From positions 1 to 64,000 of the forward strand of contig CAIXCY010000108.1 in NCBI GenBank assembly GCA_903918045.1: 64,000 nucleotides of DNA. Reading direction: 5' to 3'. The stretch comes from an uncultured Bacteroidia bacterium (GTDB lineage Bacteria > Bacteroidota > Bacteroidia > Bacteroidales > Prolixibacteraceae). A program made the position numbers and the translations under genes. The notes beneath the pieces are model-generated. The model was not told the DNA's origin and made no database searches. It saw only the letters and a list, made by a program, of their open reading frames with translations. Below, one piece after another: positions 27,271 through 47,818 of the stretch; position 1 is the stretch's first letter, and each line of letters starts with the position of its first letter.

Positions 27271-27271
27271 T

Positions 27272-28420: not shown

Positions 28421-28432
28421 TTTGATAAATTG

Positions 28433-30484: not shown

Positions 30485-30486
30485 AA

Positions 30487-31548
30487 ATGAATATAAACCG
30501 ATACCATATTATCCTTGTAACCCTGACTATTTTTACGTTTTCGGGATGTATGAAGGATGACCAATGGGTAAAAAGTCATCAAAGCTCAAATCTGATGACT
30601 AAAGGCGTTTTTATAGTTAACGAGGGAAATTTTATGTATGGAAATGCATCTCTTTCGTTTTATGATCCATTAACCCGGAAATTGCAAAATGATATTTTCT
30701 ATAATAACAATGGTTTGCCTCTTGGCGATGTTGCACAGTCAATGGCTATCCATAATAACCTGGGGTATATTGTGATCAATAATTCAGGCAAGGTATATGT
30801 CATCGATACCTCCGACGGGAAATATGTCGGTAAAATCACAGGGTTAACCTCTCCCAGGTATATTCATTTCATTAGTAATGAGAAGGCCTATATTTCAGAT
30901 CTTTATGCTGGTAAAATTTCCATTGTAAATCCAATAACCTACCAGATTACAGGATCGATACCTACTCCCGGACATGCTTCAACCGAGCAGATGGTACAAT
31001 GGAATGACTTTTTGTTTGTCAGTTGCTGGTCATTCGACAATAAGATTTTAGTGATCGATACCAAAACTGATCAGATAGTAAATGAAATTACAACAGGAAA
31101 ACAACCGGGCGGATTAGTGATTGATAAATTGGGTAAGATCTGGACACTTTGTGATGGTGGATGGTCACGAATCGGAACAACGCCAAGGATTCCGATGCTT
31201 CAAAGAATTGATCCTTCAAGCGGGACCGTTGAAAAGAGTTTTACACTGACATCAGACGGTGCCCCTTCCCGCCTGGCAATAAATGGTACCGGTGATTCAA
31301 TTCTATTTATTAATGATGGCATTTGGAAGCTTGGTATAACTCAGACCTCTCTTGGAAACCATCCTTACCTGGTCACAGGAAGCCATCTTTACTACAGCCT
31401 TGGTATCGATCCACAAACCTCCGAACTTTACCTGAGCGATGCCATTGATTATCAACAACAGGGGATTATTTATCGCTATTCATCACTTGGTATGAAGGTT
31501 GATAGTTTTAAAACAGGTATAATCCCAGGTTCATTCTGTTTTAAATAG
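30487..31548 (+). CDS. Beta-propeller surface lipoprotein, BtuG-like
   Basis: A 353-residue lipoprotein (lipobox C21 in 'IFTFSGC'). The body is a YncE-like/DUF5074-type seven-blade propeller built from repeats such as 'GKVYVIDTSDGKYVGKITGL', 'GKISIVNPITYQITGSIPTP' and 'NKILVIDTKTDQIVNEITTG'. In Bacteroides thetaiotaomicron a propeller lipoprotein of this class, BtuG, binds B12 very tightly on the cell surface and covers the BtuB barrel. The same order here (BtuB, then propeller, 2 bp apart) makes that role likely. It closes the riboswitch-controlled unit. No terminator is clear in the 128-bp gap that follows. Confidence 0.8.
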   Translation: MNINRYHIILVTLTIFTFSGCMKDDQWVKSHQSSNLMTKGVFIVNEGNFMYGNASLSFYDPLTRKLQNDIFYNNNGLPLGDVAQSMAIHNNLGYIVINNSGKVYVIDTSDGKYVGKITGLTSPRYIHFISNEKAYISDLYAGKISIVNPITYQITGSIPTPGHASTEQMVQWNDFLFVSCWSFDNKILVIDTKTDQIVNEITTGKQPGGLVIDKLGKIWTLCDGGWSRIGTTPRIPMLQRIDPSSGTVEKSFTLTSDGAPSRLAINGTGDSILFINDGIWKLGITQTSLGNHPYLVTGSHLYYSLGIDPQTSELYLSDAIDYQQQGIIYRYSSLGMKVDSFKTGIIPGSFCFK

Positions 31549-32758: not shown

Positions 32759-32885
32759 AATTTAAAGAACAGTGTAAGAAAAAGGTTCTATTTACCTTCA
32801 GTGTTTATATTTCTTTGTATCGCAATTGGATCCGTCGTCGGAATGTCACATTTTTCTTACTAGTTTTGTCAAAAAAATTCAAAGA

Positions 32886-33389
32886 ATGGCAACAAAGAAC
32901 CTTTCAGCATACGATCTGAATTCTGTACCTGACGGAAAAGAGATGAAATTCGGCATTGTGGTTTCAGAATGGAATTATGAAATAACGGGCGCATTAATGC
33001 GGGGTGCAATTGAAACACTCAAAAAACACGGAGTACAGGATGATGCAATCGTGGTTAATCATGTTCCCGGTAGTTTTGAATTGACACTTGGCGGTCAATT
33101 TTTTGCCGAATATACCGATGTCGATGCAATTATTCTGTTAGGATGTGTAATTCAGGGTGAAACCCGTCATTTTGATTTTATCTGCCAGGGTGTGGCAAAA
33201 GGAGCTACCGATTTGAATATAAAATATAACCTCCCTGTTATATTTGGATTATTAACCACTGATAATCAACAGCAAGCACTGGACCGTGCAGGTGGAAAAC
33301 TTGGAAATAAAGGGGATGAGGCTGCAGTAACAGCTATTAAAATGGTTTCGTTGCAGAAAAATTTTGAATACGAGAGTAATATTGAATAA
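32886..33389 (+). CDS. ribH: 6,7-dimethyl-8-ribityllumazine synthase
   Basis: A 167-residue riboflavin-pathway enzyme that joins 5-amino-6-ribitylaminouracil with 3,4-dihydroxybutanone 4-phosphate. I take the ATG at 32886; the frame is open back to 32826 but those residues do not fit the family. '[20 protein letters not shown]', 'VPGSFEL', '[20 protein letters not shown]' and '[20 protein letters not shown]' are the core lumazine synthase motifs, including the active-site histidine in 'TRHFD'. No FMN riboswitch is seen upstream. It stands apart from other rib genes. Confidence 0.93.
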
Positions 33390-33491: not shown

Positions 33492-35912
33492 ATGCATCTG
33501 GAAGAAGACAAGCTATCAACATCTTTACCCATTACCAAAGAGATCGTTATTGACGATTATTACACGGCATTTTTAAGCCGCCAGCTTAGTATGTTAGGGA
33601 GAAAAGAGGTGCATGCGGGACGTGCCCATTTTGGAATTTTCGGCGATGGTAAAGAGCTTGCACAGGTTGCTTATGCCAAGTATTTTCAAAAAGGAGACTG
33701 GCGTGCAGGGTATTACAGAGATCAGACGTTTATGATGGCTGCTGATTTACTGAGTCCGGAAGAGTTTTTTGCTCAGATTTATGGCGATACCGACCTGGAA
33801 AATAACCCTTCAACCGGTGGGCGGAATTTTAATAATCATCATGCTACCAAAACCTTCAGTAAGGGAATAGGTCTTGATGATTTTATGGCCCAAAAAAATT
33901 CTTCGTCTGATGTTTCTTCCACCGGAGGTCAGATGCCACGACTTCTGGGTTTGGCTCAGGCATCTAAGCTCGTGCGGGACAATCCGGAACTGGTGCCCTA
34001 TCTTGAAAACAGGATTTGCGGAAACGAAGTCGCTTTTGGTACCATTGGGGAGTCAAGTACTTCTGAAGGGATGTTTTTTGAAACAATTAATGCAGCTTGT
34101 GTTCTTCAGGTCCCCATGGCTGTAGCAATCTATGATGATGGTTTTGGAATAAGCGTTCCGGTTGAACTTCAGACTGCCAAAGGAAGTATTTCTAAGGCCC
34201 TCAAAGGTTTCGAGGCGAATGGAAAAGAGCTCGGATGTAAAATATTTGTTTGTCCAGGACATGATTACCTTGCTCTGATTCAGACCTTTGAAAAAGGAAT
34301 TAAAATCTGCCGTGAGCAACAAATCCCTGTAATTTTTCATATTACTCAGCTTACACAGCCCTTGGGTCACTCAACTTCCGGTTCTCACGAACGGTATAAA
34401 AGTGATAAACGAATCGCCTGGGAAAAAGCACACGATCCGATTTTAAAGTTTCGTGAATGGATCATTCAGGAAAACATCACCGATGAGGAAACTATTCTTT
34501 CCCTCGAAAACAAGGCAATTGAACGTGCACGGTTAGCCCGTGAGCTTGCATGGCAATCCTTTATTCAGGATTTTGACGAAGAAAAATACCAATTACAGAA
34601 TTTAATAGGGACAATCGGTTTTGATGATAATCCGTTAATGTCCAAGATAACCCAGGAAATGGAGTTGGTTCTTGTTGCACCTTTTCCGACCCGGAAAAAA
34701 TTGCTCGCCCTTGCAAAGACTCAACTACGCTCAATGCACGGAATTCCTGAGCTTCAAAAAAACAAACGCAACCTTGCGACCTGGATTTCAAAAATCGAGA
34801 AGAAGGGTTATGAAAAATATAATACCCATATATTTAATGACTTAGATAGTTTTAAATCAAGTGTTGAAATAAAACCTGAATATGGAGAGGAGCCTATTTC
34901 AGTTCCGGCACATGAAGTTTTAAACCAAAATTTCGACTGCCTCTTTGCCAAATATCCGCTCCTGTTAACCTTTGGAGAGGATACCGGACGACTTGGTGAC
35001 GTAAACCAGGGGATGAAAGGAATGCAGGAAAAATATGGTGATCACCGGATTTTTGATACAGGAATCAGGGAGACTACCATTATTGGTCAGGGAATTGGTT
35101 TGGCAGTCAGGGGTTTTAGGCCGATTGCAGAAATTCAATATCTGGACTACCTGCTTTATGCCCTGCCAACCATTTCAGACGATCTTTCAACTCTTTATTA
35201 TAGGACAAGCGGACAGCAGATAGCTCCCCTGATAATTCGTACCAGGGGGCATCAGTTACAAGGAATGTGGCATTCCGGATCACCAATGGGCATGCTTCTT
35301 GGCTCAATAACCGGGGTTAATATCTGCGTACCCAGAAATATGACTCAGGCTGCCGGATTTTATAATACACTAATGAAGGCACATAATCCTGCTTTGGTTA
35401 TAGAACCTCTAAAAGGATATTACATCCGTGAGATGCTTCCCGAAAATCTTGGAGAATTTACGGTTCCACTTGGCATTGCAGAGGTCCTGGAAGTAGGAAC
35501 CGACATTACTATCGTTACTTACGGTTGGAATGTTACAATTGCGCATAGTGCCGTAACCAGATTAAAAAGTTTAAATATATCGGTTGAATTAATTGATATA
35601 CAAACTCTTATACCTTTCGATACTCAACAGATTATTTGCAAATCGGTTCAAAAAACAAAAAAAATTATTTTTGTAGATGAAGATGTTCCAGGCGGAGCAA
35701 CAGCCTATATGATGCAAAAAGTTATCGAAGAGCAAAAAGCATTTCGCTACCTTGAAGTGCCTCCGGCAACCCTGACAGCGAAAGTACATCGTGGTGCGTA
35801 TGGTACAGATGGCGAGTACTTCTCGAAACCAAACACTGAAACTGTTATAGAAGCAGTTTACGAAATCATGCATAACCACAATCCTGGACTGTATCCGGGG
35901 CTTTATGATTGA
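33492..35912 (+). CDS. Branched-chain 2-oxoacid dehydrogenase E1, alpha-beta fusion
   Basis: An 806-residue thiamine-diphosphate enzyme with both E1 subunits in one chain. The alpha half (about 1-420) has '[20 protein letters not shown]' and the TPP region '[20 protein letters not shown]'. The beta half (about 470-806) has '[20 protein letters not shown]', '[20 protein letters not shown]' and '[18 protein letters not shown]'. It would decarboxylate a branched-chain 2-oxo acid such as 4-methyl-2-oxopentanoate (from leucine) and pass the acyl group to a lipoylated E2. No E2 or E3 gene is next to it. The overlap of 8 bp with the acyl-CoA carboxylase gene ties it to leucine breakdown. A pyruvate-specific enzyme cannot be fully excluded. 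Confidence 0.82.
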
Positions 35913-37494
35913 TAAAACCTTAAACTTGAAGCAGATCCATTCTAAAATAAACAGTTCTGATGATCAGTTTAACGAAAAGGTAAAAACTTACACCGAACTG
36001 ATGAATATTTTTCACTCCCGGATGAATAGTGTGATCCGGCGTGAGAAAGATTTATCGGTAATCAGGCACCTTTCCAGGGGAAAAATGGATGCCCGAAGCC
36101 GGATTGAGCTGTTAATCGATGAGCAAACTCCCTTTCTGGAACTTTCGGTTCTGGCTGCTTACGGACAATATGACGATCAGTTCCCTTCAGCCGGAATAAT
36201 TACGGGAATAGGTAAAATCCATGGCAAAACGTGCATGATCATTGCCAATGATGCAACTGTAAAGGGCGGCACTTATATCAGTGAGACAGTTAAGAAACAT
36301 TTGAGAGGGCAAGAGATAGCAATGCAAAATCACCTGCCCTGTGTTTATCTGGTCGACTCCGGGGGAATCTTCCTTCCGGAACAGGCACGTATCTTTCCTG
36401 ATCAGGATGGTTTTGGACGCATTTTTTATAACCAGTCGCAAATGTCGGCGGCAGGAATCCCGCAAATATCCATCGTAATGGGATCGTGTACAGCCGGAGG
36501 AGCATACGTTCCGGCAATGAGTGATGAAACCATTATTGTTAAAAATCAGGGGACAATTTTTATTGGTGGCCCACCCTTAGTAAAAGCAGCTACTGGCGAA
36601 GAGGTTACAGCCGAAGAGCTAGGTGGGGCATTCGTCCATACGGGAATTTCAGGAGTGGCTGATCATCTTGCAGAAAATGAGATTGATGCAATACGAATTT
36701 GCAGAAATATTTTTGAATTAATTCCTAAGAACGACGAACAACAATTTGAGAAATATCCAATCTGTGAGCCAGCTAACAATTCGGAAGAATTGTACGGACT
36801 GGCACCGATCGATCTCCGAAAACCGGTTGATGTATACGAAATTATAGCCCGGATTGTTGATGGTAGCAATTTTGAGGAGTTTAAACGGGATTATGGTACA
36901 ACTTTAATTACCGGGTATTCCAGGATATTGGGATTTCCTGTTGGAATCATTGCAAATAACGGATTTCTTACCTCTGAGGCATCCCTAAAAGGGGCACATT
37001 TTATAGAAATCTGCAATTTTCGCAAAATTCCGTTACTCTTTCTTCAAAATATCTCCGGATTTATTGTCGGGAAAAAATATGAACACGAAGGAATTGCCCG
37101 TAATGGAGCCAAGCTGATCCATGCTGTTGCCACATCAGTGGTCCCAAAAATAACGGTAATTATCGGAGGTTCCTTTGGTGCAGGTAATTACGCCATGTCG
37201 GGTAGGGCATATAACCCCAACTTCCTGTTTATGTGGCCCAATGCCAAAATTGGAGTGATGGGAGGACAACAGGCGCAAGATGTTTTAAATTCAATCAAAG
37301 GGAATAGTTCAGCTCAGAATACCGATCTGATTACACAATTTCAGGACGAGAGTTCTGCATACTACAGCTCTTCAAGGCTTTGGGATGATGGAATTATCGA
37401 TCCTGCCGATACCCGATCAATTGTCGGATTGGCAATCTCGATCGCTTCAAACAAAAAGACCGATCCACCTAAAACAGGTATATACAGAATGTGA
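35905..37494 (+). CDS. Methylcrotonyl-CoA carboxylase, carboxyltransferase (beta) subunit
   Basis: A 529-residue carboxyltransferase of the acyl-CoA carboxylase family. Both halves of the crotonase-like fold are present: '[20 protein letters not shown]', '[15 protein letters not shown]', '[20 protein letters not shown]' in the N half; '[20 protein letters not shown]' and '[20 protein letters not shown]' in the C half. The segment '[20 protein letters not shown]' is characteristic of methylcrotonyl-CoA rather than propionyl-CoA carboxylase. Its partner is the biotin subunit at 38336-40339. It carries carboxyl groups from biotin to 3-methylcrotonyl-CoA, the third committed step of leucine degradation. 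Confidence 0.85.
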
Positions 37495-37496
37495 AA

Positions 37497-38279
37497 ATGG
37501 AAAACTACCTAACCCTTAAAACTGAAGTAAATGGTGAAATTATAACGCTTTGGCTAAACAGGCCTGAGGTTCATAATGCCCTTAATGATAACATGATCCA
37601 TGAAATTACCTCCTTTTTTACTCAAATTGAGTATAATGACAGTATAAGGGTCGTAATTATCAGGGGACATGGAAAATCATTCTGTTCGGGTGCCGACCTT
37701 GCCTGGATGAAACGCTCCTTTACACTTAATGAAGTGGAAAATTTAAAAGAGAGCCACGAGTTGTCAAGTATGTTCAACCTGATTTTTAAGAGCAGCAAGG
37801 TTATTATTGGAGCGGTACATGGTAATGTTTTTGGAGGAGGCGTTGGATTAGTCGCGGCTTGTGATATAGCCTATTGTGTGACTAATTCCAGGTTCTCCTT
37901 AAGTGAAACTCGTATTGGTATGGCAGCGGCCTCCATAACCCCCTATTTATTGCAAAAAATGCACCCGTCGGAGCTTAAAGAGCTTATCTTCTCTGCAAAA
38001 ATATTCGATGGAGCTGCAGCTGCGAAATATAAACTCGTAAATCAAGCATTTATTGACCAGGAAATTATGGAAAATCAACTGAATATACTTGTAAAAGAGA
38101 TACTTTCCAATGGCAGGCAGGCAATTATTGAATCTAAGAAGTTAATTAATCAGCTTACCGAAAAAGCAGTGACAGAAAAGATCGCTCTGATCCCGGAATT
38201 ACTGGCCAAAATCAGGGTTTCTCCGGAGGCCCAGGAGGGCTTTTCAGCTTTTCTTGAAAAACGAAAACCACAATGGTAA
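37497..38279 (+). CDS. Enoyl-CoA hydratase family protein, probable methylglutaconyl-CoA hydratase
   Basis: A 260-residue crotonase. I take the ATG at 37497, two bases after the carboxylase stop, not the GTG at 37491. 'LNRPEVHNALNDNMIHEITS', 'HGKSFCSGADLAWMKR' and 'GAVHGNVFGGGVGLVAACDI' form the CoA-binding and oxyanion regions; 'FSLSETRIGMAAASITPYLL' holds the usual catalytic-site glutamate. 'SGADLAWMKR' is the form typical of methylglutaconyl-CoA hydratases. It lies between the two carboxylase subunits in the order of liu clusters, so the expected product is (S)-HMG-CoA. Specificity is inferred from the cluster and this motif. Confidence 0.8.
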   Translation: MENYLTLKTEVNGEIITLWLNRPEVHNALNDNMIHEITSFFTQIEYNDSIRVVIIRGHGKSFCSGADLAWMKRSFTLNEVENLKESHELSSMFNLIFKSSKVIIGAVHGNVFGGGVGLVAACDIAYCVTNSRFSLSETRIGMAAASITPYLLQKMHPSELKELIFSAKIFDGAAAAKYKLVNQAFIDQEIMENQLNILVKEILSNGRQAIIESKKLINQLTEKAVTEKIALIPELLAKIRVSPEAQEGFSAFLEKRKPQW

Positions 38280-38335
38280 GCTATAAATCCGGAATTCAGT
38301 ATAATTCTTATAATATTATATAAATCAGTAATATA

Positions 38336-40339
38336 ATGGAATTATTAAATAAAATATTAATTGCGAACAGAGGTGAAATAGCCTTACGAATCATCCGATC
38401 GGCAAAAAAACTTGCCATTCAAACTGTGGCTATTTATACCGTATCCGAAAAAAACGCTGATTATGTCCGGCTAGCTGATGAAGCTGTCTGCCTTGGCGAT
38501 GGCGAACTTGCTTTAACCTTTTTGAATATCGATAAAATTATTCAAATCGCAATCTCAACCAATTCTCAGGCAATCCATCCAGGTTATGGATTTCTATCAG
38601 AGAATGCTGAATTTGCAAAGGCATGCGAAGAGAACAAGTTAATATTTATTGGGCCCCGTTCGGAGGTATTGGATTTAATGGGGAGCAAACCAAGGGCCAA
38701 AGAACTTGCCGGCAGTCTTGGAATTCCGGTCGCTTTCAGTCATAAAATTGATTCCGGGGATACCCTTCCAGATGAAGAATTAATCAATTTCCCTGTACTC
38801 ATCAAGGCTTCATTCGGTGGTGGCGGTAAAGGGATGGAACTTGTTCAAAACTACCGGGAGTTGCAGAATAAGGTTGAAAAATCGTCACGTATTGCGCTGA
38901 ATTATTTTGGAAACGGGGAGTTGTTTATTGAACAATTCATTCAAAAGGCTCGTCATATTGAAGTTCAGATATTGGGAGATAATCACCATAATATCATACA
39001 TTTATATGAGCGGGAATGTTCGATTCAACGGAATCATCAAAAAATTATAGAAGAAGCTCCCGCAATTTTTTTAACCCCCGAACTGCGTGAAAAGATTTTG
39101 AATGCAGCCATGAAATTAGCAAAGGCTGTAGCTTATTCGGGGGCTGGAACTGTTGAATTTTTAATCGATGAAGCGGGTAATTATTACTTTATGGAGATGA
39201 ATCCCCGGATTCAGGTTGAACATGCCGTTACGGAAGAGGTAACCGGGATCGATATTGTATGTGAACAATTGAAGATCTCTTCCGGATTCCACCTTTCTGT
39301 ATCTCAGAATGAGGTGAAATTAGCAGGTCATTCAATTGAACTGAGAGTATATGCCGAAAACCCTGCCACAGATTTCACCCCATCTTCTACCCCACTCCTA
39401 TCGGTCAATATTCCGGAAAACCCTTATTTAAGAATCGAGTCTGATATTAATTTAAATCAATCAACGAAGAATCAATTTGATCCATTACTGATAAAAATTA
39501 TTGCCACCACAACTGATCGGAAGAGTGCAGTAAATCTTTTAAAAGATCAGATTAAAGACCTGAATATTATAGGTCCGGAAACAAATACCAAGTACCTGGA
39601 AACTATTCTTGCTCATCCTTCCTACATTGAAAATAATATATCTGTCGAATTTTGCAAAGAATATCACAAAGAATTAGTAGCTAACTATTTAAATAAATTA
39701 GATTTACCCGATTTAAGCTATTGTATCGCTTGTGCAATTTACAGGACCTATCTAAAGCAAAATATAGGTCCGGATAAGGATGTCTGGAAATACCTTGGAT
39801 ATTGGCGGTCAGCTCCATCGGGAATCCGGTTAGTTGTTGATGGCATAATTTATTTAGTTGTCCTGGATTTAAGTGACAAGTTAAATCCCTCTTTTGTATT
39901 AAACGGGTTAAAAACGGAATTTAGTGTAAGCAATCAATTGGAAAATTGTTTGGATATTGAAATAAACAACCAAACAAGCCGAATTTCTGCTATATTTGAG
40001 AATGAATATATCCTTGGCATAAGTGTTGAGAATATTCAACATAAAATATTGTTTCCCGGTTTATTAAAAAATTATCCGGAAACTACCGAAAGTTCAGATG
40101 ATGGAACGCTATTTAATAATGATGAGATTAAGTCGCCACTTCATGGTAAAATATTGGAAATTAATATAAAAGAGAACCAGATCATAAAAAAAGGTGACCT
40201 TTTAATGGTGATTGAGGCGATGAAATCAGAGAATCGGATTCTATCACCTAAAGATGCCATAGTAAGAAAAATTGCTGTTAATGTGGGATCCCAGGTTACA
40301 GACCGGATGACCCTTATATATCTGGAGGAATTAAGATGA
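38336..40339 (+). CDS. Methylcrotonyl-CoA carboxylase, biotin (alpha) subunit
   Basis: A 667-residue subunit joining biotin carboxylase to biotin carrier. Residues 1-445 are the ATP-grasp biotin carboxylase: 'KILIANRGEIALRIIRSAKK', the glycine loop 'FGGGGKGMELV', 'ERECSIQRNHQKIIEEAPA' and 'YFMEMNPRIQVEHAVTEEV'. The C-terminal biotinyl domain has K630 in 'EAMKSE', one residue change from the usual AMKME. It needs the biotin ligase from elsewhere and pairs with the carboxyltransferase at 35905-37494. It overlaps the acyl-CoA dehydrogenase gene by 4 bp. Confidence 0.88.
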   Translation: MELLNKILIANRGEIALRIIRSAKKLAIQTVAIYTVSEKNADYVRLADEAVCLGDGELALTFLNIDKIIQIAISTNSQAIHPGYGFLSENAEFAKACEENKLIFIGPRSEVLDLMGSKPRAKELAGSLGIPVAFSHKIDSGDTLPDEELINFPVLIKASFGGGGKGMELVQNYRELQNKVEKSSRIALNYFGNGELFIEQFIQKARHIEVQILGDNHHNIIHLYERECSIQRNHQKIIEEAPAIFLTPELREKILNAAMKLAKAVAYSGAGTVEFLIDEAGNYYFMEMNPRIQVEHAVTEEVTGIDIVCEQLKISSGFHLSVSQNEVKLAGHSIELRVYAENPATDFTPSSTPLLSVNIPENPYLRIESDINLNQSTKNQFDPLLIKIIATTTDRKSAVNLLKDQIKDLNIIGPETNTKYLETILAHPSYIENNISVEFCKEYHKELVANYLNKLDLPDLSYCIACAIYRTYLKQNIGPDKDVWKYLGYWRSAPSGIRLVVDGIIYLVVLDLSDKLNPSFVLNGLKTEFSVSNQLENCLDIEINNQTSRISAIFENEYILGISVENIQHKILFPGLLKNYPETTESSDDGTLFNNDEIKSPLHGKILEINIKENQIIKKGDLLMVIEAMKSENRILSPKDAIVRKIAVNVGSQVTDRMTLIYLEELR

Positions 40340-41478
40340 ATGAATTATTAGACAGCCGCTATATCAAATACCGGCAAGAAGTTAGAGAATTTGCAGAGAT
40401 CCATGTTAAGCCTGTAGCAATTGTTCAGGATGAAAAAGAGGAATTCCCTGTTGATTTGGCATTGAAAATGGGAGAGGCAGGATTGTTCGGAATTACCGTG
40501 CCTGCCAAATACGGAGGTCAGGGTTTAGACTATATCTCCTATATAATTGCTGTTGAAGAGCTTGCGCGTGTTGACAGTTCACCTGCAGCAACCATTGCGG
40601 CACACAACTCTTTGGGGATAAATCCAATTTATACCTTTGGAACTGAAGAGCAGCGGTTGAAATATCTCCCGGGATTATGCACAGGTGAGAAATTGTGGGC
40701 TTTCGGCCTCACTGAAGACAATGCCGGTTCTGATGCAAAAGGGGTTGAGACCGAGGCAAAACTTGAAAACGGAGAATGGGTGATAAACGGAACAAAAATG
40801 TTTATCACCAATAGTTGTTCTTCGATTGCGACTGGAATTACGGCCCAGGCAATTACAGGTTATAATGATGGAAAAAAGGAGTTGTCAGCGATTTTGCTAG
40901 ACAGGTCCGTTCCCGGATACACAACGACTCCGATAAAAGGGAAATTGATGTGGCGTGCCGTCGATAATGGAAAGCTAAATTTCGAAAATTGTCGTGTTCC
41001 GGAATCCAATATTCTTGGGAAACGGGGTGAAGGGATGAAAATAATGCTCTCCACACTTGATGGCGGAAGGTTATCTATTGCTGCGATCGGGCTTGGGCTT
41101 GCTCAGGGAGCATTTGAAATGGCATCCGCCTATGCGCAGAAGCGCAGACAGTTCGGAAAACCACTGATCGAATTTCAGACCACCTCATTTAAGCTTGCTG
41201 AAATGGCGATGAAGATTGAATTGGCAAGAAATACACTCTATCATACCTGCAGGCTGAAGGAAGCTGGTCTACCTTACGGAAAACAGGCTGCCATGTCTAA
41301 ATTATATTGCTCGGATATTGCACGCGAAATCGCAGGTGAATCACTTCAGATACATGGCGGCTTCGGCTTTCTGCGTGAAAACCATATTGAGCGGTTTTAC
41401 AGGGATCAAAGGCTCCTTTCGATTGGTGAGGGGACCTCTGAAATATTAAAGATGGTTATTGCCCGATACGTTTTATAA
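40336..41478 (+). CDS. Acyl-CoA dehydrogenase of the leucine cluster
   Basis: A 380-residue FAD enzyme that oxidises an acyl-CoA to its 2-enoyl form; position suggests isovaleryl-CoA to 3-methylcrotonyl-CoA. 'WAFGLTEDNAGSDAKGVETE', 'VINGTKMFITNS', 'RRQFGKPLIEFQ' and 'QIHGGFGFLRENHIERFYRD' are family motifs. The C-terminal 'GEGTSEI' has a glutamate at residue 365, the catalytic base of short- and medium-chain enzymes. Known isovaleryl-CoA dehydrogenases instead carry the base on an earlier helix ('LDLER'), and here that place reads 'LDGGR' (G244). The enzyme is therefore not of the classic isovaleryl-CoA type, and its substrate should be treated as open. Confidence 0.85.
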   Translation: MNELLDSRYIKYRQEVREFAEIHVKPVAIVQDEKEEFPVDLALKMGEAGLFGITVPAKYGGQGLDYISYIIAVEELARVDSSPAATIAAHNSLGINPIYTFGTEEQRLKYLPGLCTGEKLWAFGLTEDNAGSDAKGVETEAKLENGEWVINGTKMFITNSCSSIATGITAQAITGYNDGKKELSAILLDRSVPGYTTTPIKGKLMWRAVDNGKLNFENCRVPESNILGKRGEGMKIMLSTLDGGRLSIAAIGLGLAQGAFEMASAYAQKRRQFGKPLIEFQTTSFKLAEMAMKIELARNTLYHTCRLKEAGLPYGKQAAMSKLYCSDIAREIAGESLQIHGGFGFLRENHIERFYRDQRLLSIGEGTSEILKMVIARYVL

Positions 41479-41495
41479 GTCTATTTTGATAAACC

Positions 41496-42557
41496 ATGGC
41501 TATAGCTGACATTCCGGATACTCCTGTCAATGAAATGATTCCTGACGATTCCCAGCGAAAATCAGATCATATCAACCTGTCTCTAAAATCGCAAACATTG
41601 GTTAACGAAGCAGATAATCGCTTTTACTATGAGCCGATGATCTCCGGATTTCCTCTAAAACCGTTGGAAACAACACCCTTTGCCGGAAAAGTAATGAAGG
41701 TTCCTATCTGGGTCTCCAGTATGACCGGCGGCCATCTCTCCTCAGGAAAGATCAACCGAAACCTTGCAATGGCTTGCAAGGAGTTTGGAATGGGTATGGG
41801 ATTAGGCTCCTGCCGGATGTTACTCAGCGAAGAGACCTATTTCAACGATTTTAATGTCCGTTCGATCATTGGTGATGAAAATCCACTATTTGCAAATCTT
41901 GGGATTGCCCAAATTGAAGAGATGGTTGAACGAAATGAAACAGATCAACTTCGTCGGCTGATTGACAGGTTACAGGCAGATGGCCTAATTATCCATGTCA
42001 ATCCGCTTCAGGAGTGGGTGCAGCCTGAAGGGAACATAATTCACCATTCTCCCGTTGATACAATTGAAAGACTTTTGGATAAGATTGATTTTCAGCTTAT
42101 CGTAAAAGAAGTTGGGCAGGGTTTCGGACCAAAGAGCATCCACCGACTGTTACAACTTCCACTGACTGCAATCGAATTCGGAGCTTTCGGAGGAACCAAT
42201 TTTTCAAAAGTAGAAATACAGCGGAACCCGATCTTAAAACAAGAATTGCATCAACCTTTTGTAAATGTTGGGGTAACTGCTGATGAAATGGTTGATTTGA
42301 TTAATGATATGGTATTAAGTGGAAATAAATTTATTTGCAATCAACTGATCATTTCGGGAGGTATTCATAACTATCTGGATGGATATTACCTGACTCAGAA
42401 ATCGGTACTTCCGGCAATATATGCACAGGCCTCTGCATTTCTGAAATACAGTCAGGAAGATTATTCCGTATTGCAGCAATTCGTCACAGCACAAATAGAG
42501 GGTTTTAAGATGGCAAGGAATTTCCTCACCTTAAAAGAGCCGAAGAGATCATTATAA
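41496..42557 (+). CDS. fni: Type 2 isopentenyl-diphosphate delta-isomerase
   Basis: A 353-residue FMN- and NADPH-dependent enzyme interconverting IPP and DMAPP. 'RKSDHINLSLKSQ', 'FRYEP'-like 'FYYEPMI', 'KVPIWVSSMTGGHLSSGKIN', 'GMGLGSCRMLL', 'ANLGIAQIEE', 'IHVNPLQEWVQPEGN' (with the conserved glutamine) and 'FQLIVKEVGQGFGPKSI' are characteristic. The length fits. It lies 17 bp after the acyl-CoA dehydrogenase, so leucine and isoprenoid genes are physically joined here. It is the last enzyme of the mevalonate route but the first gene of that part of the cluster. Confidence 0.88.
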   Translation: MAIADIPDTPVNEMIPDDSQRKSDHINLSLKSQTLVNEADNRFYYEPMISGFPLKPLETTPFAGKVMKVPIWVSSMTGGHLSSGKINRNLAMACKEFGMGMGLGSCRMLLSEETYFNDFNVRSIIGDENPLFANLGIAQIEEMVERNETDQLRRLIDRLQADGLIIHVNPLQEWVQPEGNIIHHSPVDTIERLLDKIDFQLIVKEVGQGFGPKSIHRLLQLPLTAIEFGAFGGTNFSKVEIQRNPILKQELHQPFVNVGVTADEMVDLINDMVLSGNKFICNQLIISGGIHNYLDGYYLTQKSVLPAIYAQASAFLKYSQEDYSVLQQFVTAQIEGFKMARNFLTLKEPKRSL

Positions 42558-42651
42558 TATTTCAGACTATCTCTTCGCAAATTCTATCACGACATATTTG
42601 AAATCATTCATCTAATAATTAAACGATTACAACTATATTACGCGAAAAGGC

Positions 42652-43959
42652 ATGACGATTATTTCCGGATTCTCAAAATTCAGCCATAAGCAGCGATTGG
42701 CATTTCTTGTTGCTCATTCAGATTTAAATGATCAACAGGCATTGCGTTTAAATGATTTTTCAGCTCCGAAAGAGGATCAGCAACGTCTGTTAGGCGAAAT
42801 GGTTGAAAACTATATTGGAAATTTCCCACTGCCAATGGGAGTTGTTACCAATATGGTGATTAACGACGAATCGTATAGTGTACCCTTTGTAACTGAAGAA
42901 AGTTCAGTTATTGCTGCAGCCTCCAAAGCGGCTAAATTTTGGGCTGAAAGGGGCGGTTTCCATGCCCAAATTGAGTCGATAACAAAAAAGGGGCAGGTTC
43001 ACTTTTCCTGGAACGGAAATCCTGAGATAATTCACGAGTTATTTCCCGAAATAAAACGCATACTGACAGATTCGACCCTCGAAATTACGGATAAAATGAG
43101 AAAACGCGGAGGTGGAATAACTGATATCCAACTTCTTGATAAAACAAACGAATTACCCTGTTATTACCAGATTGATCTCTCTTTCGAAACAGCAAATGCG
43201 ATGGGGGCTAATTTCATCAATACATGTCTCGAAAAGATTGCTTCAGTTTTGCAAAACCTCTCAGAACTAAATAACGAAGAAACTAAGGTTGAAATTATCA
43301 TGTCAATCCTTTCGAACTATAACCCTGACTGTCGGGTAATCTGTTGGGTCGAATGTCCGGTTGAAAAATTATCCGGGTGGAATAAGAATCTGTCATACAA
43401 TTCCTTCGCAGCTAAATTTAAACAATCAGTTGACATTGCAAATCTGGATATTTCAAGGGCAGTAACGCATAATAAAGGCATTTTCAACGGTATAGATGCT
43501 GTCCTTTTGGCAACAGGTAATGATTATCGGGCAACCGCTGCCGGTGCCCATGCCTACGCTTCGAGGAGAGGCAAATATAAAGGGTTAACAACGGTAATAG
43601 TCACCGAGCAAACTTTCAGGTATGAGCTTGAAATACCACTTGCTATCGGAACGGTCGGAGGAATTACCCAAATTCACCCGACTGTAAAAAATGTAATGGC
43701 TATCCTAAAATATCCGGATGCTAAAAAGCTCATGATGATTGCAGCCGCTTCGGGTCTTGCCAATAATTTCGCAGCAATAGCCTCATTAATATCGACCGGA
43801 ATTCAGACCGGGCATATGAAAATGCATCTTTCAAACATTTTGAATCAGCTTGTTACCACTGACACGGAACGAGAACTTGCGAATACTTACTTTTCGGACA
43901 AAACAGTCAGCAATTCGGCAGTCAATGATTTCATCCTTTCTCTAAGGTCAGGAATTTGA
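42652..43959 (+). CDS. mvaA: HMG-CoA reductase, class II
   Basis: A 435-residue hydroxymethylglutaryl-CoA reductase that reduces HMG-CoA to mevalonate in two steps. E83 in 'VTEESSVIAAAS' corresponds to the catalytic glutamate of the Pseudomonas mevalonii enzyme. 'GIDAVLLATGNDYRATAAGA' holds the conserved aspartate region and 'TGHMKMHLSNI' the catalytic histidine. Class II enzymes lack the membrane domain of eukaryotic forms and often use NADH. With mevalonate kinase and decarboxylase genes nearby, it probably works in the biosynthetic direction. The gene begins after a 94-bp gap, the largest inside the mevalonate part, which could hold a separate promoter. Confidence 0.92.
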   Translation: MTIISGFSKFSHKQRLAFLVAHSDLNDQQALRLNDFSAPKEDQQRLLGEMVENYIGNFPLPMGVVTNMVINDESYSVPFVTEESSVIAAASKAAKFWAERGGFHAQIESITKKGQVHFSWNGNPEIIHELFPEIKRILTDSTLEITDKMRKRGGGITDIQLLDKTNELPCYYQIDLSFETANAMGANFINTCLEKIASVLQNLSELNNEETKVEIIMSILSNYNPDCRVICWVECPVEKLSGWNKNLSYNSFAAKFKQSVDIANLDISRAVTHNKGIFNGIDAVLLATGNDYRATAAGAHAYASRRGKYKGLTTVIVTEQTFRYELEIPLAIGTVGGITQIHPTVKNVMAILKYPDAKKLMMIAAASGLANNFAAIASLISTGIQTGHMKMHLSNILNQLVTTDTERELANTYFSDKTVSNSAVNDFILSLRSGI

Positions 43960-43970
43960 ATTCTACGGAG

Positions 43971-44888
43971 ATGAAAACTTTTATATCGCAAACAAAATTA
44001 ATGTTAACCGGTGAATACCTTGTACTTAAAGGAGCGCTTTCACTGGCGTTACCTTTACGGTTTACCCAAAAGCTCACTGTAACTGAGCATGAGGGAATCC
44101 CTTCGGTGAGGTGGAAATCAATGATTGATACTAAATTATGGTTTAATTCTACCCTGCTCCTCCCCGACTTTCGAATTGCAGAAACGAATATTCCTCAATT
44201 ATCTGAAACCCTGGTCCAAATTCTGAAAACTGCTAAATTACTTAATCCCAATTTCCTTAAGAACTCAACCGATTATCAGGTAACTTCATTCATGGATTTT
44301 GATCCGGCCTGGGGCATCGGTTCAAGCAGTTCCCTGATTTCAAATATAGCTTACTGGGCCGAATGCGATCCCTTCGAGCTAAATAATCGTATCTTTAACG
44401 GTTCAGGATATGATATCGCATGCGCCAGGTCTGAATCTCCAATTATATTTAATCTGTCTGAAAAGAGACCAGTTTACAGGAATTCCGGATTTGATCCCTC
44501 ATTTCGTAATCAAATCTATTTCATTTACCTGAATCGCAAACAAAATTCGAAGGAAGCCATTCAGAAACTGGACTTTTCAAGCGCAAATGCAAGCGCCCTC
44601 TCTGCAATATCTGAAATTACTCTCGCAATGGAACAGGCAAATGACCTGGAAACATTTGAGCAATTAATGACCCTGCACGAGGAAATAATTTCAAATATAG
44701 TTCAGATAAAGCCTATTAAGTTACTTTATTTCAATGACTTTAATGGGTCCATAAAATCGTTGGGCGCCTGGGGTGGAGATTATATCATGGCTGTTTCATC
44801 CGAATCGGAAGAATATGTCCGAGACTATTTTAATTCGAAAAATTTAAATACGATTTTCAGATTTGACGAAATTGCAATGTTTCATTAG
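43971..44888 (+). CDS. GYDIA-family GHMP kinase, possible phosphomevalonate kinase
   Basis: A 305-residue GHMP kinase. I take the ATG at 43971, giving 'MKTFISQTKLMLTGEYLVLK'; a TTG at 43956 is possible. 'FDPAWGIGSSSSLISNIAYW' is the ATP-binding loop of GHMP kinases, and 'NGSGYDIACARSESPI' is the motif that names the GYDIA family of Bacteroidota. The substrate of this family is not proven as far as I know. In this cluster mevalonate kinase and diphosphomevalonate decarboxylase are present and a phosphomevalonate kinase is the only missing kinase, so that is the natural candidate. It sits between mvaA and mvaD. Confidence 0.8.
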   Translation: MKTFISQTKLMLTGEYLVLKGALSLALPLRFTQKLTVTEHEGIPSVRWKSMIDTKLWFNSTLLLPDFRIAETNIPQLSETLVQILKTAKLLNPNFLKNSTDYQVTSFMDFDPAWGIGSSSSLISNIAYWAECDPFELNNRIFNGSGYDIACARSESPIIFNLSEKRPVYRNSGFDPSFRNQIYFIYLNRKQNSKEAIQKLDFSSANASALSAISEITLAMEQANDLETFEQLMTLHEEIISNIVQIKPIKLLYFNDFNGSIKSLGAWGGDYIMAVSSESEEYVRDYFNSKNLNTIFRFDEIAMFH

Positions 44889-44919
44889 GATCTCAAAAAT
44901 CATAAACAGTAAATTATTG

Positions 44920-45987
44920 ATGAGCGAAGAGATAATAATTATTGGATGGAAAGCCCCTTCGAATATTGCCCTGGTAAAATATTGGGGGAAAAGGGGAAAT
45001 CAGCTCCCGGAAAATGGATCGTTAAGCATTACTTTAGAAAATTCTACAACAACCACCTTTCTCTCTTTTCAGAAAAAAAGCGAAAAGGGGGACACCATTT
45101 CACTGAAATACTATTTTCACAAGGAGCAGGTTTTGCCCTTTGAAAAAAAGACTGAATTGCTGCTGAACAAGTTATGCTCTGAAATGCCTTTTCTTGTGGA
45201 TTATGAACTTGTTTTTCATAGCGAGAATAATTTCCCCCATTCAACAGGAATTGCCTCTTCTGCTTCTTCTATGAGTGCGCTTGCCCTCTGCCTGGTAAGT
45301 ATGGAGGAGATAGTCAATGCCAATCAACTCGAAAATGATGAATTTTTCAGGCGAGCTTCACTAATTGCAAGGCTGGGTTCCGGAAGCGCTTCGCGATCCG
45401 TTTACGGTGGGCTGGTATCCTGGGGATCGAGCGACTCAATCGCAAATTCCTCCGATGAGTATGCCACCCCTTTCCTGCTGCATGAGGGAAGCCGTCTGAA
45501 TAAGGTCATGGATATCATATTGATTGTGAGCTCAAAGGAGAAGTCTGTTTCAAGTACGAAAGGACATGCACTTATGTCTGAACATCCTTATCGTGAAGCC
45601 CGAAAAATGCAGGCGAACAATAATCTAATCAAAATTACGGAAGCCATTCGCATTGATGATTACCAATCAATTGCAGAAATTGCAGAAAATGAGGCACTTT
45701 CACTTCATGCACTCTTAATGACTTCGGGTTCAGATGGGCTATTGTTAAAGCCCAATACGTTGTATATCCTGGAAGAGATTAAACGATTCAGGGAAACGTC
45801 CGGTCTTGATCTTTTTTTTACAATTGATGCAGGACCCAATGTCCACCTTATCTATTACGAAGACCAGCGTGAACAGGTGCTTGAATTTGTCCGTCAAAAC
45901 CTGAGTCAGTATTGCGAAGATGGCCGGTGGATTGATGATCAGTTCGGCAGCGGACCGCAAAAGATAACATCCGTGATGAAGAACTGA
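44920..45987 (+). CDS. mvaD: Diphosphomevalonate decarboxylase
   Basis: A 355-residue GHMP-family enzyme that converts diphosphomevalonate to isopentenyl diphosphate with ATP. The start at ATG 44920 gives 'WKAPSNIALVKYWGKRGNQL', the family's N-terminus; the frame is open back to 44863 but that overlaps the kinase gene. 'NNFPHSTGIASSASSMSALA' is the ATP loop, 'RLGSGSASRSVYGGLVSWGS' holds the arginine and serine of the active site, and 'FTIDAGPNVHLIY' the conserved aspartate. It ends one base before the mevalonate kinase ATG, so the two are likely coupled. Confidence 0.92.
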   Translation: MSEEIIIIGWKAPSNIALVKYWGKRGNQLPENGSLSITLENSTTTTFLSFQKKSEKGDTISLKYYFHKEQVLPFEKKTELLLNKLCSEMPFLVDYELVFHSENNFPHSTGIASSASSMSALALCLVSMEEIVNANQLENDEFFRRASLIARLGSGSASRSVYGGLVSWGSSDSIANSSDEYATPFLLHEGSRLNKVMDIILIVSSKEKSVSSTKGHALMSEHPYREARKMQANNNLIKITEAIRIDDYQSIAEIAENEALSLHALLMTSGSDGLLLKPNTLYILEEIKRFRETSGLDLFFTIDAGPNVHLIYYEDQREQVLEFVRQNLSQYCEDGRWIDDQFGSGPQKITSVMKN

Positions 45988-46893
45988 ATGGATTACCCTG
46001 CCAAAATAATCCTCTTTGGAGAGTATGGGATAATCTTGAATTCCAAGGCTCTGGCTATCCCCTATCCAAAATTTTCGGGTAAATTCTGTATGCCCGAAAA
46101 TTCCGGTAATAAACTTTCAAAAAAAACTGATGAATCGAATGGTGCCTTAGCTGATCTAAATAATTACTTTAAATCGAACAGAGGGAAGTTTAAATTTCTG
46201 GACCTCATTAAATTTGCAGAGGATATCCGGAAAGGGTTGTATTTTGATTCGACAATACCATTAGGCTCTGGATTGGGAAGCTCGGGAGCCCTTACTGCCG
46301 CAGTTTATGACCGTTACCGAATAGAAAGCCAGTCAGATGATCTATACCTAATTAAAACTAAACTAGCCGCTATTGAATCCTCTTTCCATGGGGTAAGTTC
46401 CGGAACTGACCCGTTTATATGCTGGATAAAGAAACCGGTACTACTTGAAAATAAATCAGAATTTAAAACAGCTATCGACCTCTCCCCTTTTTTCAATATG
46501 TATACTGTGTTCTTAATCAATTCACACGCTGTTGGAAATACCGGTGCGTTGGTGACGCTATTCATGGATCAATATCAGCAACCCGAATTCAAAGAAAAGA
46601 TTGATCATGAGTACCTCCCCGTAATAAATCAAACTATTGATGCCGTAATCGCTGCTGATTTCAGTACTTTTGAGCGGTCATTGATTGAGTATTCGCAGTT
46701 TCAGCTTAGTCATTTCACGCAAATGATCGCACCCGATATGATAAATCATTTTAAACTGGGAAATGAGAGCGGGGATTTCTGTTTAAAGATTTGTGGTTCA
46801 GGAGGTGGCGGATTTATATTAGGATTTTCACGTTACCCTGAAAAAGCAAAAGCCTATTTTAATTTAAACCATCTTGATTATACGATTGTTTAA
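45988..46893 (+). CDS. mvk: Mevalonate kinase
   Basis: A 301-residue GHMP kinase that phosphorylates mevalonate at the 5-hydroxyl. 'MDYPAKIILFGEYGIILNSK' is the N-terminal motif, 'IPLGSGLGSSGALTAAVYDR' the ATP loop, 'SSFHGVSSGTDPFICWIKKP' the substrate-site segment typical of mevalonate kinases, and 'LKICGSGGGGFILGFSRYPE' the third motif. It is the last gene of the leucine-mevalonate run; lipA follows after 70 bp. No HMG-CoA synthase gene is found anywhere in the window. Confidence 0.85.
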   Translation: MDYPAKIILFGEYGIILNSKALAIPYPKFSGKFCMPENSGNKLSKKTDESNGALADLNNYFKSNRGKFKFLDLIKFAEDIRKGLYFDSTIPLGSGLGSSGALTAAVYDRYRIESQSDDLYLIKTKLAAIESSFHGVSSGTDPFICWIKKPVLLENKSEFKTAIDLSPFFNMYTVFLINSHAVGNTGALVTLFMDQYQQPEFKEKIDHEYLPVINQTIDAVIAADFSTFERSLIEYSQFQLSHFTQMIAPDMINHFKLGNESGDFCLKICGSGGGGFILGFSRYPEKAKAYFNLNHLDYTIV

Positions 46894-46963: not shown

Positions 46964-47818
46964 ATGAGTACAATTACCCGAAGACTTCCCGACTGGATGA
47001 AAACACCGCTTCCTTCGGGAAAGGAATATGTAGCCTTAAAAAATCTGGCAGCTACTCAGCAGTTAAATACAATCTGCGTGAGCGGGAACTGTCCGAATAA
47101 AGCTGAATGTTGGGGCGCATCAACAGCAAGTTTTATGATTTTGGGTGAAAAATGTACCCGTAACTGCAGGTTCTGTGATGTGAAAAATATGATACCCGAT
47201 GCAGTAGATCTTGAAGAGCCGATAAGGTTGGCAGAAACAATTAAAACATTGAAAATTAAACATTGCGTGATCACCTCTGTTACACGTGACGATCTTGATG
47301 ACGGTGGTGCAGCACTTTGGGCGTTAACAATCAGAACAGTTAAAGCGGTTAATCCCGGAATCACCATGGAGACTCTGATTCCCGATTTTTATGCCAATAA
47401 AGAGCTGATTCAGCAAGTGATTGATGCGCGACCAGAAGTAATTTCTCACAATATGGAGACTGTTCGCAGACTTACACCAAAAGTTAGGGATATCGCCCGG
47501 TATGACAGGAGTCTTAAGGTAATTGAAATTATTGCAGCTTCAGGAATTGTCCCAAAATCCGGCATTATGGTCGGATTAGGCGAGACCGAAGAGGAGGTTC
47601 TCCAGACAATGGATGATCTGCTCAAAGCAGGTTGCAGAGTATTAACTATTGGCCAGTATCTTCAGCCAACCTCCCATCACCTTAAGATTGAAGAATTTAT
47701 AAAGCCCGAAATCTTTATCAAATACCGTGAAGCTGCTCTGGAAAAAGGTTTCAAAATGGTTGAAAGCAGTCCGCTGGTTCGTTCATCCTACCGTGCTGAA
47801 AGACATGTGCACGCTTAA
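46964..47818 (+). CDS. lipA: Lipoyl synthase
   Basis: A 284-residue radical-SAM enzyme that inserts two sulfurs into protein-bound octanoate. The auxiliary cluster cysteines C38, C43 and C49 ('CVSGNCPNKAECW') and the radical-SAM set C64, C68 and C71 ('CTRNCRFC') are all present, and the C-terminal 'ESSPLVRSSYRAE' supplies the serine ligand of the auxiliary cluster. Lipoate is needed by the E2 partners of the oxoacid dehydrogenases, including the E1 at 33492 and the SucAB pair at 59612-63616, so its place on the same strand just after the leucine-mevalonate run is sensible. Confidence 0.95.
   Translation: MSTITRRLPDWMKTPLPSGKEYVALKNLAATQQLNTICVSGNCPNKAECWGASTASFMILGEKCTRNCRFCDVKNMIPDAVDLEEPIRLAETIKTLKIKHCVITSVTRDDLDDGGAALWALTIRTVKAVNPGITMETLIPDFYANKELIQQVIDARPEVISHNMETVRRLTPKVRDIARYDRSLKVIEIIAASGIVPKSGIMVGLGETEEEVLQTMDDLLKAGCRVLTIGQYLQPTSHHLKIEEFIKPEIFIKYREAALEKGFKMVESSPLVRSSYRAERHVHA

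Follow-up and report, generated by a model that had tools for sequence, protein, structure and literature searches.

A Bacteroidales gene cluster that joins leucine-degradation and mevalonate genes and may lead leucine carbon to isoprenoids

Textbook mevalonate pathways start from acetyl-CoA and reach HMG-CoA through HMG-CoA synthase (HMGS). In the leucine shunt of Leishmania, Trypanosoma brucei, and Halobacterium salinarum, as the cited sections describe it, five steps lead from leucine to HMG-CoA, which then enters the mevalonate pathway (PMC8791446, PMC5993337). T. brucei is stated there to have HMGS and a putative HMG-CoA lyase as well (PMC5993337). The sesquiterpenes of myxobacteria are reported to acquire label from dimethylacrylic acid but not from acetate, by way of leucine-degradation intermediates, and genes of the alternative isovaleryl-CoA route are present in these bacteria (PMC7321100). 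As far as the cited sections go, neither an operon of both pathways in trypanosomatids or Halobacterium nor a joint operon or a lack of HMGS in myxobacteria (PMC7321100) is described. The earlier note on this DNA had pointed to the direct use of leucine for isoprenoids in Leishmania; this precedent is reported, and the cited parts of the literature extend it to Halobacterium (PMC8791446) and myxobacteria (PMC7321100).

The window, which is the whole stretch of 64,000 nucleotides that was analysed, resembles the leucine shunt in bringing together genes for 3-methylcrotonyl-CoA carboxylase (MCC), a methylglutaconyl-CoA hydratase candidate, and HMG-CoA reductase (HMGR). It differs in uniting both pathways in one bacterial cluster and in that HMGS and the lyase were not found. 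Like liu operons, the cluster contains the genes for MCC beta, hydratase, MCC alpha, and an acyl-CoA dehydrogenase in tight order; unlike them, it has mevalonate genes in place of that for HMG-CoA lyase, of which none was found in the genome, and its dehydrogenase is of another active-site type. The gene order HMGR-GYDIA-MDD-MK is shared with many other Bacteroidota, in which, however, leucine genes do not adjoin it (none of 30 loci in members of the class without HMGS). Compared with the classical mevalonate pathway, the genes for HMGR, the kinases, and the decarboxylase are present, but HMGS was not found in the organism.

Organization of the cluster and identities of its enzymes

All ten open reading frames were confirmed at positions 33492-46893 of the + strand. 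They were identified by family profile searches (NCBIfam, Pfam), in which several matches were judged by curated cut-offs, and the results agree with the names that the earlier note had given to ten genes in tight order on one strand. The cluster and its two flanking genes are arranged as follows:

32826..33389, + strand: ribH, lumazine synthase, flavin supply (TIGR00114, over cut-off)
33492..35912, + strand: fused alpha/beta E1 of a 2-oxoacid dehydrogenase (PF00676, PF02779, PF02780)
35905..37494, + strand: MCC beta, 3-methylcrotonyl-CoA carboxylase (carboxyltransferase family match; PDB sequence scores)
37491..38279, + strand: LiuC-like enoyl-CoA hydratase, ECH (NCBIfam models, both below cut-off)
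38336..40339, + strand: MCC alpha, biotin carboxylase and biotin carrier (Pfam domains)
40336..41478, + strand: acyl-CoA dehydrogenase, ACAD (family match; SCAD active-site type)
41496..42557, + strand: type 2 isopentenyl-diphosphate isomerase, IDI2 (TIGR02151, 186 bits, below the cut-off of 281)
42652..43959, + strand: class II HMG-CoA reductase, HMGR (PF00368, 283 bits, over cut-off)
43956..44888, + strand: GYDIA-family GHMP kinase (NF040656, 349 bits, over the cut-off of 225)
44863..45987, + strand: diphosphomevalonate (or phosphomevalonate) decarboxylase, MDD (TIGR01240, 161 bits, cut-off 171)
45988..46893, + strand: mevalonate kinase, MK (TIGR00549, 84 bits, below the cut-off of 163)
46964..47818, + strand: lipA, lipoyl synthase, conserved neighbour (TIGR00510, over cut-off)

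In the leucine half, overlaps join E1 to MCC beta (8 bp), MCC beta to ECH (4 bp), and MCC alpha to ACAD (4 bp), and 56 bp separate ECH from MCC alpha. The two halves meet at the ACAD/IDI2 junction of 17 bp. In the mevalonate half, a gap of 94 bp precedes HMGR, HMGR and GYDIA overlap by 4 bp, GYDIA overlaps the longest reading frame of MDD by 26 bp, and MDD and MK abut (0 bp). The measured values of -8, -4, -4, 17, -4, and 0 bp match the overlaps of 4-8 bp and the gaps of 0-17 bp described previously. The true start of MDD is probably an in-frame ATG about 20 codons downstream of the start of the reading frame. The 94-bp gap could provide room for a promoter. Generic scans gave 50 promoter matches, compared with 45.0 in shuffles, and 12 terminator matches, compared with 13.8. 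A Bacteroidota-type promoter pattern occurs at three sites, all of them intragenic, against 1.0 in simple shuffles.

The fused E1 is a candidate branched-chain (2-oxoisocaproate) dehydrogenase E1, the substrate of which we can only infer because its PDB matches are a mixture of pyruvate and branched-chain E1. It is present in the window as previously noted, but belongs to the cluster in this genus only. MCC beta scores 617 bits against MCC beta of P. aeruginosa (3u9r), 614 bits against mitochondrial MCC beta, and a lower 422 bits against geranyl-CoA carboxylase. The chains that outscore MCC are a carboxyl transferase domain protein (664 bits), AccD1 (646 bits), and the propionyl CoA carboxylase 9tps (629 bits); the next chain named propionyl-CoA carboxylase, 3n6r, reaches 272 bits. 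MCC is preferred over geranyl- and propionyl-CoA carboxylases, despite the score of 9tps with its propionyl name. According to the cited part of one study, the active site of MCC has a Phe in place of the Gly of geranyl-CoA carboxylase (PMC4673880). Among NCBIfam models, ECH scores best with PRK07468 of the crotonase family, at 228 bits, followed by PRK05674, gamma-carboxygeranoyl-CoA hydratase, at 200 bits; neither score reaches the cut-off. Its best PDB chains are 3i47 and 4kpk. ECH, which we take to be similar to LiuC, is a candidate 3-methylglutaconyl-CoA hydratase that would yield HMG-CoA. The translation of MCC alpha contains EAMKS, and all 32 linked MCC alpha reading frames carry a biotin-type xMKx motif, five of the 32 being the same contigs counted twice.

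The acyl-CoA dehydrogenase family of ACAD was confirmed, but its active site is not of the isovaleryl-CoA dehydrogenase type. It scores higher against butyryl and short-chain enzymes than against isovaleryl-CoA dehydrogenases, its translation contains EGTSE, and all 37 aligned relatives carry EGT at the SCAD place. At the helix position that presumably holds the catalytic Glu of isovaleryl-CoA dehydrogenases, the window translation and all 37 relatives have a Gly before Arg instead. ACAD may therefore be described as a candidate isovaleryl-CoA dehydrogenase of the SCAD active-site type. A reading frame 63% identical to it was found inside a lyase-type leucine cluster (locus L261).

The Pfam search gave no match for IDI2. 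HMGR scores 401 bits against PDB 7n7s, and its residues E83, K275, D291, and H388, which we take to be catalytic, are invariant among 11 aligned HMGRs. GYDIA, MDD, and MK are all GHMP enzymes, and the GYDIA protein is a candidate phosphomevalonate kinase. The top fold matches of its AlphaFold model (pLDDT 93.4) are mevalonate kinases and the phosphomevalonate kinase 1k47 ranks tenth, so that the fold search does not separate the two activities. The best PDB chain for MDD is 6n0x, titled mevalonate 5-phosphate decarboxylase, and the PDB sequence matches of MK are mevalonate kinases in six of six cases. Judged by family matches, HMGR, mevalonate kinase, a second kinase, and a decarboxylase are all present; the substrates of the second kinase and the decarboxylase are uncertain.

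Conservation of the cluster and distribution of HMG-CoA synthase and lyase

The order MCCb-ECH-MCCa-ACAD-(IDI2)-HMGR-GYDIA-MDD-MK recurs across genera in three families of the order, which answers the gene-order comparison proposed earlier. Because other genera and two additional families share it, with 33-94% protein identity, the cluster is more than a chance arrangement. Tangfeifania diversioriginum DSM 27063 carries the complete series from MCCb to MK (locus L158). In 22 of 25 neighbourhoods in the order, HMGR has linked leucine genes next to it, compared with none of 30 in other HMGS-lacking members of the class. The ACAD/IDI2 gap has a median of 18 bp (range 2-257) across 25 loci, and on the HMGR tree the leucine-linked HMGRs account for 3 label changes, compared with 27 in shuffles. 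Among 61 genomes of the order, MCC beta is present in 28 of 28 with HMGR and in 2 of 33 lacking HMGR, and in one of these two (G017) the cluster is interrupted by a contig end. This nearly perfect co-occurrence favours the earlier claim that the two gene sets belong together. MCC beta was scored in 80 chosen genomes; an earlier phylum-wide cut-off had hidden the Flavobacteria-type MCC. Five genomes of the order have HMGR without the linkage (G032, G041, G046, G049, and G052): HMGR of G049 lies at a contig start, and G046 and G052 carry only another HMGR type. G041 has a liu-type operon with the same four genes and an HMG-CoA lyase gene after ACAD, where the mevalonate genes stand in the window; it carries HMGR and two lyase genes.

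The earlier note had reported HMGS and lyase genes as absent from the window and the cluster, respectively, and both absences extend further. HMGS was not found in the cluster, the whole genome (98.8% complete), any of 18 members of the genus searched, or 60 of the 61 order-level genomes, and an assembly gap was rejected as the cause on the basis of these counts. The sole order-level genome with HMGS, G048, has an archaeal type over the cut-off and no HMGR. A blind profile was also rejected: the profile yielded 28 strong matches and 12 weak ones in a sample of 392 genomes of the phylum, the archaeal type was detected, and an alignment of three Bacteroidota HMGS recovered all four genomes that bear HMGS, although two of these had supplied rows to the alignment, and none of the other 59. 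HMG-CoA lyase was found neither in the cluster nor in the genome, where the four PF00682 places score best as CimA, pyruvate carboxylase subunit B, and 2-isopropylmalate synthase, the last split into halves on two contig ends; the curated lyase cut-off was passed by 0 of 61 order-level genomes. In the rest of the class, HMGR commonly occurs with neither detectable HMGS nor linked leucine genes (30 loci), and the missing synthase alone is therefore no signature. The MEP genes looked for in the genome, those for DXR and IspH, are both present. An organism devoid of the MEP pathway was thus rejected; the cluster would represent a second isoprenoid route, probably not the sole one, and the need for it is not forced.

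Proposed route and alternative explanations

The ten genes probably constitute one metabolic unit that turns leucine or isovalerate carbon into IPP via HMG-CoA, beside the MEP pathway, and we assign this reading a probability of roughly 0.8. It draws on the observed gene content, order, conservation, co-occurrence, and absences. The leucine-degradation enzymes, with the substrates predicted for each, would convert leucine (or isovalerate) through isovaleryl-CoA, 3-methylcrotonyl-CoA, and 3-methylglutaconyl-CoA to HMG-CoA. HMGR would reduce HMG-CoA to mevalonate, from which the kinases, the decarboxylase, and the isomerase would form IPP and DMAPP. The genes would be co-transcribed, with flux in this direction and alongside the MEP pathway. 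The mevalonate genes would substitute for HMG-CoA lyase, and HMGS would be unnecessary. According to established chemistry, the carboxyl group added by MCC is the one lost at the decarboxylase, and the five-carbon skeleton of isovaleryl-CoA would therefore enter IPP intact, with CO2 acting as a temporary tag. The genomic checks thus favour the leucine-to-isoprenoid route of the earlier note, in that synthase and lyase were not found and the gene order is kept; it is probably not the only route to isoprenoids.

The entry substrate could instead be free isovalerate, 3-methylcrotonate, or products of isoprenoid breakdown, making the cluster a salvage route from branched C5 acids to new isoprenoids. 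This is doubtful but deserves consideration; it has the step from HMG-CoA to mevalonate in common with the preferred reading and is compatible with it. Linkage of E1 is confined to this genus, whereas the core from MCC to MK is general, and the genome encodes leucine synthesis (leuA, leuC, and leuD). Genes for an AMP-forming acyl-CoA synthetase and for AtuA (acyclic terpene utilisation) lie between MCCb and ECH in G049 and between MCCa and ACAD in G052, respectively, neither of them beside HMGR. Entry from leucine is favoured by the 8-bp overlap of E1 and MCCb in the window and by the higher score of MCC beta against methylcrotonyl-CoA carboxylase (617 bits) than against geranyl-CoA carboxylase (422 bits).

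Two separate modules might happen to be neighbours, one for leucine catabolism that ends in an unrecognised lyase and one for a mevalonate pathway that an unrecognised HMGS feeds. Many class members have HMGR while neither HMGS nor linked leucine genes are detectable in them, which leaves room for an unknown synthase. Nevertheless, we consider such a pairing unlikely, as the adjacency is conserved with tight junctions in three families, MCC beta accompanies HMGR in all 28 genomes, and lyase and synthase are both missing from the same genomes. Reverse flow, from mevalonate or HMG-CoA to isovaleryl-CoA that primes iso-branched fatty acids, would resemble the alternative isovaleryl-CoA (aib) route of myxobacteria, which employs the AibA/AibB decarboxylase and the AibC reductase. 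Bacteroidota commonly contain iso-fatty acids, and the NCBIfam model of the class II family, to which this HMGR is assigned, is named degradative. However, the two kinases, decarboxylase, and isomerase in the cluster point from mevalonate towards IPP, and HMGS to supply HMG-CoA was not found, making reverse flow highly improbable.

Implications and neighbouring genes

To judge from the genomes, this bacterial lineage draws HMG-CoA from branched-chain carbon, the lyase step having been exchanged for the reductase. Whereas the chemistry of the leucine shunt is already known, this exchange in a bacterial operon appears to be new: no such operon is described among the matches listed (titles and starts of abstracts, with few subscription papers). 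The cluster offers a concrete, cultivable test case for a mevalonate pathway without the synthase, a question left open for Legionella in the cited part of a 2026 review (PMC13001223). Tentatively, and at somewhat less than even odds, a mevalonate pathway without HMGS may be fed by the C5 skeleton of leucine or isovalerate across much of Bacteroidota, with the window operon fixing the link in gene order. If true, this would be a possible answer for other bacteria in which HMGR and mevalonate genes occur without a synthase. The cluster may also represent a naturally occurring operon by which leucine or isovalerate is turned into isoprenoids; a 2021 review states, in the section cited, that to its authors' knowledge the leucine shunt had not yet been built in E. 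coli (PMC8791446).

The gene ribH adjoins E1 in 10 of 25 order-level neighbourhoods and flanks the cluster in this genus; we do not claim it as part of the system. Linkage of lipA was found in 14 of 25 neighbourhoods, and its product possibly serves E2 of the oxoacid dehydrogenase. In six clusters, a UbiA prenyltransferase gene is located downstream of MK, and all six exceed the Pfam cut-off.

The ten-gene cluster and its enzymes

The ten genes are present as the earlier note had described, all on the forward strand, and family searches back their names, with several scores falling under curated cut-offs.

33492-46893, + strand: E1, methylcrotonyl-CoA carboxylase (MCC) beta, hydratase (ECH), MCC alpha, acyl-CoA dehydrogenase (ACAD), IDI2, HMG-CoA reductase (HMGR), GYDIA, decarboxylase (MDD) and mevalonate kinase (MK)
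59612-62326: 2-oxoglutarate dehydrogenase E1, some 13 kb past the cluster
26969-27175: cobalamin riboswitch
27248-31548: genes downstream of the riboswitch, namely an ORF that matches no NCBIfam model and the genes for a TonB-dependent B12-receptor-like and a beta-propeller protein

In comparisons with PDB chains, MCC beta scores 617 and 614 bits against solved methylcrotonyl-CoA carboxylases, versus 422 bits against geranyl-CoA carboxylase and 272 bits against propionyl-CoA carboxylase 3n6r; three otherwise-named chains score higher (664, 646, and 629 bits), the last of them named propionyl CoA carboxylase. The hydratase is LiuC-like. HMGR belongs to class II, and its nearest structure is 7n7s (401 bits). 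GYDIA is predicted (pLDDT 93.4) to be a GHMP kinase resembling mevalonate and phosphomevalonate kinases. The decarboxylase, which may act on diphosphomevalonate or on phosphomevalonate, is nearest to chain 6n0x, with the entry title mevalonate 5-phosphate decarboxylase.

The ACADs of the window and its relatives share a SCAD-type catalytic position, with EGT in 37 of 37 aligned sequences (five contigs counted twice), and not the isovaleryl type. In genome G041, the cluster MCCb-ECH-MCCa-ACAD is followed by a gene with HMG-CoA lyase as its sole strong NCBIfam match (178 bits; cut-off 246). The contig carries a second lyase-like gene (199 bits); HMGR is on a different contig. The genes IDI2-HMGR-GYDIA-MDD-MK occupy the place of this lyase gene in the window and its relatives. 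Because the ACAD in the lyase-type cluster of G041 is 63% identical to that of the window, the comparison supports a leucine-pathway role for the window ACAD, despite its SCAD-type catalytic position. Two other leucine clusters contain additional genes. In G052, the gene for an AtuA (acyclic terpene utilisation) protein separates MCC alpha from the acyl-CoA dehydrogenase (L265:6870-8687). In G049, MCC beta and the hydratase are separated by an AMP-forming acyl-CoA synthetase, a possible activator of free branched acids (L264:643-2580).

Conservation of the gene neighbourhood

The cluster is real and strongly conserved. The order-level set contains 28 HMGR-positive genomes, 25 of which, besides that of the window, carry the cluster-type HMGR; G046 and G052 have an HMGR of another type only. 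Gene order in these genomes bears out the pairing described in the earlier note, as leucine genes stand beside HMGR in most of the 25 order-level neighbourhoods (ACAD in 22, MCC alpha in 22, MCC beta in 19, and ECH in 17). IDI2 is linked in 20, and GYDIA, MDD, and MK in 23 each; E1 is linked in ten, every one in the window's own genus. HMGR is unlinked to leucine genes in G041, in G032, where the contig extends 2.2 kb upstream, and in G049, where HMGR opens the contig. Among 80 named loci, five of which repeat order-level loci, the family ACAD was found in 13, MCC alpha in ten, MCC beta in six, and ECH in seven; carriers of the MCCb-to-MK cluster include Bacteroidales MAGs, Prolixibacteraceae MAGs, and Tangfeifania diversioriginum DSM 27063 (Prolixibacteraceae). 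None of 30 loci (stretches of 11.5-19 kb) from other, HMGS-lacking class members has MCC, ECH, or ACAD beside HMGR.

On a quickly built 130-row HMGR tree with long branches, the leucine-linked label changes three times, versus a mean of 27 after shuffling; the linked rows do not form a single clean clade, and the odd rows include L040, which is unlinked within 2.2 kb, and L188, which has an ACAD of 39% identity 1.6 kb away. Two genomes of the window's genus, G014 and G002, carry a second HMGR of a different type (L060, L061), with no window-type mevalonate or leucine genes within the 19 kb examined. HMGR frames of 747-787 amino acids occur in other genomes.

HMG-CoA synthase, HMG-CoA lyase, and carboxylase distribution

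The genome containing the window (contig C108) comprises 5,359,328 bases in 281 contigs, and is 98.8% complete and 3.99% contaminated. The absence of HMG-CoA synthase (HMGS), noted earlier for the window, extends to this whole genome. HMGS occurs in one of the 61 order-level genomes, G048, which has an archaeal type (511 bits to TIGR00748) and no HMGR. A blind HMGS profile was rejected as an explanation: in a 392-genome phylum sample, 28 genomes match strongly (at 49 bits and above) and 12 others weakly. All 28 strong-match genomes also carry HMGR, which is present in 95 of the 392; 67 of these have no strong HMGS match, including 34 of 62 from the same class. A three-row Bacteroidota HMGS alignment detected four of four HMGS genomes (two of which supplied rows) and none of the other 59. 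The 30 HMGR loci without linked leucine genes (L106-L135) come from complete or near-complete class members, mostly with GYDIA and with no detectable HMGS; their HMGRs cluster on the tree with those of named Flavobacteriaceae, Saprospiraceae, and others.

HMG-CoA lyase, which the earlier note found absent from the cluster, is likewise not found in the genome: the four PF00682 places are two halves of 2-isopropylmalate synthase at two contig ends, a CimA-like gene with leuC and leuD beside it, and the gene for pyruvate carboxylase subunit B. No order-level genome (0/61) has a lyase above the curated cut-off, which three of 14 control genomes pass; strong matches below it are limited to G041 (two) and G053. 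The MEP route very probably exists too in the genome of the window, since DXR and IspH, found in 57 and 55 of the 61 genomes, respectively, are both present there.

MCC beta accompanies HMGR in the order-level set (28/28 HMGR-positive versus 2/33 HMGR-negative genomes; Fisher p 2e-15 when genomes are counted and 7e-11 for the 44 genera, each scored by any member, with relatedness ignored), and outside the window's family (6/6 versus 1/18). The exceptions are G017, a 78% complete genome in which an E1-MCCb-ECH-MCCa cluster meets the contig end right after MCC alpha, and G048. One 4.6-kb contig of G048 (L063, C342) encodes a LiuC-like hydratase, the archaeal-type HMGS over its cut-off, and a 735-residue PycB-like protein with a biotin carrier. 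At the class level, an MCC-like beta subunit (45-50% identity) is present in 18 of 19 HMGR genomes, 12/12 without HMGS and 6/7 with it, so MCC presence does not separate HMGS-lacking from HMGS-bearing genomes there.

A proposed route from leucine to prenyl donors

In leucine degradation, isovaleryl-CoA is converted to 3-methylcrotonyl-CoA, which is carboxylated at the gamma carbon and hydrated to HMG-CoA. Reduction of HMG-CoA gives mevalonate, and two phosphorylations and a decarboxylation lead to IPP. The carboxyl group added by MCC would be the one removed at the decarboxylase, and the C5 skeleton should thus be retained whole through to IPP. The leucine-to-isoprenoid reading of the earlier note is the best-supported one, with flux along this route as its prediction.

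The leucine-to-mevalonate chemistry is already known in other organisms. A leucine shunt has been reported in Halobacterium salinarum and Leishmania mexicana (PMC8791446), in T. brucei (PMC5993337), and, via dimethylacrylic acid feeding, in myxobacteria (PMC7321100); a 2026 review treats HMGS-less Legionella as an unsolved case (PMC13001223). The window would have this chemistry in common with the known shunts, and differs in its predicted joint bacterial operon; no bacterial operon joining both pathways was found among the matches listed in a literature search of mainly open-access papers.

No UbiA gene lies in the 70 bp between MK and lipA of the window. Six neighbourhoods, which represent three families, have a UbiA-family prenyltransferase directly after MK (L035, L038, L045, and L052 of the window's family; L051; L054), and all six prenyltransferases exceed the Pfam cut-off. 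The UbiA of L052, the only one scored against NCBIfam, is nearest to MenA models, below every MenA cut-off. The position of UbiA after MK in these six clusters fits an output of prenyl donors.
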